Source: Cyanobacterium sp. HL-69 (GTDB lineage Bacteria; Cyanobacteriota; Cyanobacteriia; Cyanobacteriales; Cyanobacteriaceae). From it: DNA of 64,000 bases. Below, in pieces: positions 37,362 through 39,386 of the stretch. The notes beneath the pieces were generated by a model. The model worked only from the letters and a program-made list of their open reading frames with translations. It did no database searches and had not been told where the DNA came from. The stretch covers positions 1,736,001-1,800,000 of the forward strand of contig CP024912.1 of assembly GCA_002813895.1 (NCBI GenBank). The letters run 5' to 3'. The position numbers were made by a program, and so were the translations under genes. Position 1 is the first letter of the stretch, and each line of letters opens with the position of its first letter.

Positions 37362-39290
37362 TTATTTAGTGAAATAGGCTTCTAAAGCCTCGGCAACAAT
37401 TTGATTCATCGCTTTTTTCTCTTCACCAGCAATGGTTTTTAATTTTTGGTACCATTCCTCGTTAACACTGATACGATGTTCATTACGTTTTGCACGGGGT
37501 TTCTTTTCGCCTTTTTTCATAGTTTTTTGATTATTAGGTTGATAAGTTTGGGCATATTCTCTGAGGGCATCGAAACCGACACGATTACAGAAGTCGCCAA
37601 AGGTTTCATTTTTCTTTTTGCTATCACGAAAGTAAACAAATAGAGGTTCTAAAAACTGCTCTAATTCCGCAATATTGAGTTTTTCTTGGTAGGTACGCGC
37701 CAATCTGGTTTGATTTGGGCAACCTCCTAACCACATTTGGTAAACATTGGGGGCCGAACCCACAAACCCTAATTCTGCCATATAAGGGCGCGCACAACCA
37801 TTGGGGCAACCCGTCATCCGAATGACGAAGGTTTCTTCTGCCATACCTAATTTAGCCAAAAGGGTGTCAATGCGATCGATTATGCTAGGTAAAATTCGCT
37901 CTGATTCAGTGGTGGCTAATCCGCAGGTGGGTAGGGCGGGACAAGCCATGGAATAACGGGTAAGATGATTGACGTTATCAGGATCTAATTCTACGCCGTT
38001 ATTACGGAAAACTTGGTTAATGTCTTCTTGCCATTGGGGATTAATTTCATAAAGAATGATGTTATGGTTAGCACTCAGGCGGGTAGGTAATTCATATTTG
38101 GTGATTACTTCCTTGAGGGCGGTTTTGAGTTGGAATTGACCATCATTTTTTACTCTACCGTTTTCTACAGAAATACCAAGGAAAAGTTTACCATCTCCTT
38201 GCTCATGCCATCCGAGATAGTCTTCATATTTCCACTTGGGTAGTTTTTTGAAGGATTCTAATTTTTTGCCGAAGTATTCTTGTAGTTTGGTTTTAAATCT
38301 TTCTACTCCCCAATCATTGATTAAATACTTCATTCTGGAATGACGGCGGTTAGTGCGATCGCCATAATCCCTTTGAGTAGCGACTACTGCTTTGACTAAA
38401 TCAAATACATCATCTTTTTTCACATAACCAATTTCATCAGCACTACGGGCAAAGGTTTCCTCTTTACGATGGGTACGTCCCAAACCACCCCCAGCAAGGA
38501 CATTAAACCCCTGCAATTCGCCTTTTTTATTGGTAATCACCACCAAACTAAGGTCATGGGTATAAATATCAATGGAGTTGTCTCCCGGCACAGTGACAGA
38601 ACATTTAAACTTACGAGGCATATATTGAGTACCGTAAATAGGCTCTGGGGAGTCCTCAAAATTAGTACCATTTTTGCCTTTTTGGCGGGCTGCTTTGACT
38701 TCGGGGGCTTCTTCGGCAGTGATGGCTTTTTCACCATCTAACCAAATCTCATAATAAGCACCACTTTGGGGAGCGAGTAAATCCGCTATTTTGTCGGCAT
38801 ATTCCCAAGCGTATTGATAATCTAACCTATTCTTGTAGGGGGCAGGAGGTGCCATCACATTACGGTTTAAGTCTCCACAAGCCCCTAGGGTAGAACCCAT
38901 GTTCTGCACAATGGTTTTAATGACGGTTTTAAGATTTTTCTTTAAAATACCGTGGATTTGATAACCCTGTCTGGTGGTAACTCTGAGGGTATGGTTGCCA
39001 TATTCTTCCGAAAGTTGCTCAAGGGCAAGGTAAAGTTGAGGAGGAATAAACCCTCCTGGGTTACGGGTACGTAACATAAACTGATAGTCTTTTTCTTGCC
39101 CTTTTACCCGATTGTCTCGGTTATCTTGTTGATAAGAGCCGTGAAATTTTAATATTTGAATACCATCTTCACTAAAATGGGTGGTATCTTGCTTTAATTC
39201 CGTGGCTACTGGTTCTCTTAAAAAGTTACTACGCTCTTTAATTCCTTCCACTTTTGAGCGTTTTTTCTCAATGGTTGAACTGTCTGTCAT
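37362..39290 (-). CDS. sir: Ferredoxin-sulfite reductase with a C-terminal ribbon-helix-helix-like tail
   Basis: A 642-residue enzyme reducing sulfite to sulfide with six electrons from ferredoxin in sulfur assimilation. The 4Fe-4S/siroheme ligands are C450 and C456 in CPALPTC and C495 and C499 in CPNGC. Siroheme-contact arginines are in [13 protein letters not shown]. After the reductase core, residues about 589-604 are very basic ([12 protein letters not shown]), and 605-639 read as a ribbon-helix-helix-like module ([17 protein letters not shown], then [12 protein letters not shown]). This tail may bind DNA or another acidic partner. The gene appears monocistronic. Confidence 0.95.
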
Positions 39291-39386
39291 TACTTTTGTA
39301 TATTTTTTGTCAGATTCCTATTTACTATTCTAGTGCGATCGCACTTTACCTGCCATTAGAGACACAAAAATTAAAAACAAAAAAAC

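Follow-up and report, generated by a model that had tools for sequence, protein, structure and literature searches.

The sir gene and its C-terminal extension

The 64,000-nucleotide stretch of Cyanobacterium sp. HL-69 analyzed here (contig CP024912.1; hereafter the window) encodes a ferredoxin-dependent sulfite reductase (SiR) on its reverse strand (Table 1). Residues 5–583 of the protein match the whole of the NCBIfam model TIGR02042 (581 positions), with 1018.3 bits against a cut-off of 731.5. Because this match stops at residue 583, the tail lies outside the known enzyme, and the remaining 59 residues consist of a linker followed by a strand-helix-helix segment. The initial annotation had placed residues 589–642 beyond the siroheme/4Fe-4S core, which agrees with this boundary; its coordinates are exact (residue 589 starts at position 37526, residue 642 ends at 37365, and the stop codon occupies 37362–37364) and the protein stretches it quoted are present. 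Cys450, Cys456, Cys495, and Cys499 are invariant among 24 aligned SiR sequences and are presumably the cluster and siroheme cysteines. A search of the organism's own genome identified one full-length SiR and one other place that is 30–33% identical in two pieces, which is probably a nitrite reductase.

Table 1. Features of sir and its product, in window positions.
Feature	Position	Strand	Evidence
sir, ferredoxin-dependent sulfite reductase, 642 aa	37362..39290	-	ORF; TIGR02042 1018.3 bits
Catalytic core, residues 1–583	37542..39290	-	TIGR02042 model end at 583
Linker, residues 584–600	37491..37541	-	Basic in the window's clade, relaxed selection, low model confidence
Putative RHH domain, residues 601–642	37365..37490	-	Profile, models, conservation, dN/dS
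Expected beta-strand, residues 604–609 (EHRISV)	37464..37481	-	CopG alignment, conservation
Arg606 codon	37473..37475	-	Arg in 158/158 tails
Predicted helix A, residues 611–624	37419..37460	-	AlphaFold models
Predicted helix B, residues 628–641	37368..37409	-	AlphaFold models

Assignment of the tail to the ribbon-helix-helix superfamily

Searched alone, the window tail matched ribbon-helix-helix (RHH) families in Pfam (Antitox_RHH, E = 0.024; RHH_3, E = 0.12; both below the curated cut-offs), PrgO (E = 0.014) and ORF56 (E = 0.077) in NCBIfam, and the antitoxin EndoAI (E = 0.042) among PDB sequences. Since these single-sequence library matches were weak, relatives were gathered and a tail profile was built from an alignment of 36 diverse SiR tails, in which the single invariant residue is tail Arg24 (Arg606 of the protein). 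Against the PDB, 16 of the 19 matches of this profile at E ≤ 1 were RHH proteins or a designed beta-alpha-alpha protein, including ORF56 (1.2e-4), AvtR (2.2e-4), ParG (5.9e-4), CopG (0.092; two entries), and PutA (0.13), together with 56B, StnY, E73, omega (two entries), ParD, EndoAI, a CopG-family regulator, and MazE6. Three of the 19 are not RHH proteins, namely 8fje (the top row, a short-repeat match), AmbE, and the designed protein 7dns. When the 36 tails were searched singly against Pfam, RHH_5 was found in 12, RHH_1 in 7, and ParG in 6, and five unrelated families were found in one member each.

Profile comparison by hhalign aligned the tail with CopG (probability 90, E = 1.6e-6) and with PutA (probability 70), while two unrelated window proteins used as a control gave a probability of 0.1 each. 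In a shuffle control, for which the profile was rebuilt from 32 tails by excluding four rows, the window's own and three others from its family, the real window tail scored 60.7 bits and the best of 2000 shuffled tails scored 8.9 bits. By sequence profile similarity the tail falls within the RHH superfamily, with the window tail alone remaining under the Pfam cut-offs.

An AlphaFold model of the tail (34 sequences; mean pLDDT 77.0, pTM 0.45) places helices at tail residues 29–42 and 46–59 after an extended segment, with block pLDDT values of 82–91 over tail residues 21–60 and 87–91 over both helices. No strand is assigned at residues 604–609 in this monomer model, because the pairing partner of the strand would be a second chain. 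Foldseek gave no PDB match with E below 0.001 (best 0.37; 88 rows up to E = 10), and its leading rows were StnY, Arc, CopG, and CopASO; ORF56 came 14th and PutA 17th. VIA-align, run on 110 of Foldseek's own chains, returned 97 at Z ≥ 2 and three at Z ≥ 5; the best three are the Escherichia coli PutA RHH (Z of 5.4, 5.0, and 5.0, over model residues 19/20–60), and most of the rows listed are RHH proteins, with Z values that are middling for so small a domain. The model has the strand-helix-helix order of the superfamily at these middling Z values and with the strand unpaired in the monomer. In the full-length AlphaFold model (26 sequences, mean pLDDT 77.4), residues 587–608 are below 50 and are followed by helices at 611–624 and 628–641; several core stretches are also below pLDDT 50.

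RHH DNA-binding domains thus lead both structural comparisons of the predicted tail, and the strand-helix-helix, RHH-like pattern noticed in the initial annotation is borne out by profile, structure prediction, and conservation. On this sequence and model evidence, the tail very probably carries an RHH fold, and it represents an RHH module in SiR that is without annotation in the family libraries used.

Distribution and history of the tail

In the phylum sample, 199 of 386 genomes matched whole SiR at E ≤ 0.001, a count that includes weak matches and nitrite reductase relatives. The tail profile matched 269 of 388 genomes of the class at E ≤ 1e-5; these are tail-profile matches, and a SiR frame was seen for only part of the matches listed. 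Those in genomes G056, G081, and G403 are weak (E = 2.6e-6 to 6.5e-6), the SiR of G403 (locus L235) being tail-less and G056 and G081 having no strong SiR match.

Of 236 loci, all but L243 yielded a SiR protein; 165 of these 235 proteins carry the tail and 70 do not, and the tail scores do not overlap (carriers at least 34.9 bits, tail-less proteins at most 3.4 bits). Ten identical duplicates were removed, as were two loci that could not be read (L087 is cut inside a long linker and L188 is partial), which left 223 non-redundant sequences. The occurrence of the tail in cyanobacterial SiR, which the initial annotation had proposed to check, is accordingly 158 of 223, with 65 tail-less; because the loci are best matches and hand-picked rows, this share is not a frequency. 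The Prochlorococcus/Synechococcus clade accounts for 41 of the 65 tail-less proteins. All 23 loci of the series L190–L212 are tail-less, comprising 20 from Prochlorococcus, Synechococcus, or "Cyanobacteria bacterium", one from Synechococcales, one from Aphanothece cf. minutissima, and L202 from an Eremiobacterota MAG.

On a FastTree phylogeny of the SiR core (224 rows including maize, rooted on L202), the minimum number of changes in tail state is eight. The deepest branches (L240–L242, then L110–L113 and L238) are tail-less, and the tail-bearing L234 adjoins the tail-less Prochlorococcus/Synechococcus group. We read this tree, which has weak support (59 and lower) at its root and at several deep nodes, as one gain and about seven losses, the latter in the Prochlorococcus/Synechococcus group, L232, L175/L177/L182, L235, L102/L105/L174, L171/L172/L179, and L049/L147/L159/L180. 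An earlier gain followed by more losses is also a possible history. The repeated loss implies that those lineages live without the tail. No RHH remnant at E < 1 was found beside tail-less sir at the 60 loci scanned, about 20 of which had only about 500 bases of flank (L232 and L235–L242 lay outside the scan). Maize SiR fell inside the Prochlorococcus/Synechococcus clade on a long branch, a placement that we do not trust.

Genomes of other families (e.g., L258, L259, and L260) contain further tail-profile matches in open frames of 60–203 aa (best E = 3.6e-11, in L258), which are possibly relatives of the source of the tail. The window's genome also encodes a free-standing 113-aa RHH-like protein (L214:1489–1830), in which the RHH is followed by a Cys-Pro-Glu-Cys motif; judged by eye, the preceding gene resembles NYN/LabA, which we take as a presumptive label.

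Linker and selection

The linker ranges from 3 to 215 residues (median 14) among the 155 of 158 tails whose core end could be anchored, and its net charge in these 155 ranges from −24 to +9 (median 0; 63 positive, 68 negative). The Lys/Arg-rich linker described in the initial annotation is real in the window's clade (net +6 over 18 residues), but it does not characterize the family, and a functional role for it is not supported. Whatever the linker length, the RHH is still at the C-terminal end. The longest linkers, Pro/Thr/Ser/Gln-rich repeats of about 200 aa that lead into a normal RHH, belong to a Trichodesmium MAG (L183:4690–5538) and a Microcoleaceae MAG (L154:4705–5505), and Prochloron didemni (L163:4687–5076) has a repeated acidic extension after the RHH.

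Pooled dN/dS over five pairs of the window's family was 0.056 for the core, 0.42 for the linker (85 codons), and 0.052 for the RHH (205 codons), with synonymous changes near saturation. Single-pair values were 0.00–0.13 for the RHH (one pair not computable) and 0.03–0.10 for the core. The pN of the RHH (0.054) somewhat exceeds that of the core (0.034), matched by a higher synonymous rate in the RHH near saturation. Selection maintains the RHH, on which it acts about as strongly as on the core, and not the linker. Since the linker is not conserved, the RHH resembles a separate domain held by a leash.

Conserved residues and the exposed face of the strand

Arg606 is the only position that is identical in all 158 tails, followed by Tyr639 (95%), Ala635 (94%), Leu617 (94%), and Lys618 (91%). 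Residue 604 is Arg in 76%, Gln in 10%, and Glu in 9% of the tails, the last being the state in the window's family, and residue 608 is Ser in 60%, Gly in 15%, Thr in 9%, and Asn in 8%. In the ungapped hhalign profile match, residues 604/606/608 align with CopG Arg4/Thr6/Thr8; residues 606/608 correspond to PutA Gly7/Lys9 if the PutA alignment is extended by one residue. These CopG and PutA residues are presumably the ones that touch bases. The alignment would place Arg606 on the exposed face of the strand. RHH strands enter the major groove and contact bases with alternate residues exposed, according to the excerpted texts of PMC7156744 and PMC2812701. If the domain contacts DNA, an invariant Arg would be expected on the exposed ribbon face.

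From these sequence comparisons, the RHH tail probably contacts DNA. The points against this reading are the weakly basic character of the RHH (median net charge +1, and 0 in the window), the Glu at residue 604 in the window's clade, and the repeated loss of the tail. Other uses of RHH domains are protein pairing and partner binding. The RHH might therefore only pair SiR chains or bind a protein partner, with dimer avidity for ferredoxin or another enzyme and no role at DNA. The slightly positive charge fits such a role, as does the dimerization of RHH domains in general, and an RHH added to monomeric PutA gave a dimer in the account excerpted from PMC5293562. An outward-facing invariant Arg, with Arg and Ser common at the two neighboring positions, would nevertheless not be needed for pairing, and we consider pairing alone unlikely.

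The sir promoter and autoregulation

Upstream alignments revealed a shared element, ATTCCnACCGGATTACCG, often followed by GGAAT, among the rows listed (e.g., L238, L133, L065, and L019); it is not in the window. In upstream regions of 415 bases (two shorter), the element was found at ≤3 mismatches in 79 of 158 tail-bearing and 10 of 65 tail-less loci and in 0 of 669 simple shuffles. A weight matrix at the 1% level of shuffles, which was trained on the same sites it scores, found it in 105 of 158 and 11 of 65, respectively. Among six genomes searched at ≤2 mismatches, with closeness judged from coordinates, five have a site near sir: G066, G097, and G415 each have a single site, which lies no more than about 200 bp before sir, and G336 and G172 have a site near sir plus one and two others, respectively. 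A backward control pattern gave one site in G172 and two in G336, and these counts put the extra sites in both genomes at background. The single site in the window's genome is elsewhere than sir.

This box, conserved upstream of sir in many cyanobacteria, could be the operator of an autoregulatory or regulon-specific repressor, with the tail acting as in PutA and sensing sulfite, ferredoxin, or the redox state. PutA, the best structural match, combines an enzyme with an RHH and represses its own genes (PMC5293562, in excerpt), and among tail-bearers Arg604 is present in 100 of 105 with the box versus 21 of 53 without it. The latter association, however, comes from few events and is not significant when kinship is allowed for (10 independent pairs, median p = 1), and the tail itself shows no association with the box in independent pairs (7 pairs, median p = 0.69). 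An operator in its own promoter that goes with the domain, as in PutA, was not found: the box is kept in the 11 tail-less regions and is absent by weight matrix in 53 of 158 tail-bearers, the window included. The tail-less keepers include L110/L111/L238, L102/L105, L232, and the Calothrix-like L049/L147/L159/L180, whose proteins are 82–96% identical to each other. A leash of up to 215 aa would also make coupling to the active site unlikely. Because the box also occurs in tail-less lineages, autoregulation of sir through the tail, which the initial annotation had suggested, is not supported by the only conserved sir promoter element found; we regard it as improbable, and most likely some other factor binds the box.

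A 12-base palindrome, GTGCGATCGCAC, containing HIP1 lies at 39333–39344; four species of the genus share it in a comparison that anchored 5 of 15 family loci. It was considered as a site for autoregulation and set aside: it occurs twice in the window and its center, GCGATCGC, 39 times, so that it says nothing alone. The HIP1 octamer GCGATCGC (39 copies, e.g., 39335–39342) would be expected 0.21 times in the window. No Rfam family reached the gathering threshold at four sir loci, and no regulator gene was constantly beside sir at nine loci with ORFs judged by eye.

A possible role in holding sulfite reductase on DNA

Tethering to DNA appears to be the likeliest role of the tail. The C-terminal 42 residues would be a true RHH domain on a flexible leash, through which two SiR chains would pair to form a two-stranded ribbon. 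The ribbon would lie in a groove of the DNA, its residues 604, 606, and 608 turned towards the bases, and SiR would be held on the chromosome or at particular sites, presumably to some benefit, while its core carries out ferredoxin-dependent sulfite reduction as usual. So variable a leash speaks for tethering and against signaling from the active site. We lean towards this reading of the sequences and models, in which the paired, loosely leashed RHH keeps SiR attached to DNA, with only modest confidence.

A more speculative reading, which we think doubtful, is that SiR is a DNA-reading trigger enzyme, in which the RHH pair would recognize a conserved site and physically link sulfur reduction to gene expression. 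The domain would have arisen after the deepest cyanobacterial splits and have been shed many times, notably in Prochlorococcus/Synechococcus. In many lineages the recognized site would perhaps be the sir box, to which residue 604 would be adapted.

In a large bacterial phylum, a housekeeping enzyme thus seems to bear a strongly selected module of the DNA-binding type, and the sequences and models suggest that a core enzyme of sulfur metabolism is held on DNA. The defined domain, its one invariant residue, and the natural tail-less controls offer handles on whether bacterial SiR is on DNA. In the openly licensed PubMed Central literature, we found no paper joining sulfite reductase with ribbon-helix-helix and no paper on slr0963; the combination may be described elsewhere.

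Comparison with known systems

Among enzymes that moonlight on DNA, plastid SiR is a classic example. It shares the core with the cyanobacterial protein, the maize chain aligning over query residues 7–582, but this chain ends at the core and has no RHH. The DNA activity of plastid SiR (DCP68), which is reported to bind and compact plastid DNA and to repress transcription (PMC4154389, as excerpted), therefore seems not to rest on an RHH domain. The statement in the initial annotation that plastid SiR binds DNA without such a module is upheld by the solved maize chain, but C-terminally encoded peptides of plant SiR, which the excerpted PMC6249382 cites to Kobayashi et al., qualify it. By analogy with the plastid enzyme, the cyanobacterial tail could bind RNA or be a general device for nucleoid compaction; the solved maize chain without an RHH, and an RHH and linker that are not strongly basic across the family, speak against this, and we consider it very unlikely.

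CdbA, an RHH nucleoid organizer of Myxococcus xanthus, resembles the tail in its RHH fold, its exposed strand residues (Lys8, Ser10, and Tyr12), and its chromosome-wide role; it differs in not being fused to an enzyme and in binding c-di-GMP (PMC7156744, in excerpt). CopG, ORF56, and ParG share a profile match in register over the strand and two helices, but they are free-standing small plasmid proteins.

The best structural match is trifunctional PutA, which, like SiR, is a redox metabolic enzyme with an RHH at one end; the PutA RHH aligns with the tail model by VIA-align at Z = 5.4 (rmsd 2.2, 42 aligned, 10% identity). PutA shows, in the excerpted text of PMC5293562, how joining an RHH to a redox enzyme can bring dimerization, DNA binding, and autoregulation. 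The two proteins differ in that the PutA RHH is N-terminal and belongs to another enzyme with another signal, whereas the SiR RHH is C-terminal on a linker of 3–215 aa; moreover, PutA autoregulates, while no operator tied to the SiR RHH was found. The combination of an enzyme with an RHH is already known from PutA; here the RHH sits on a sulfite reductase.
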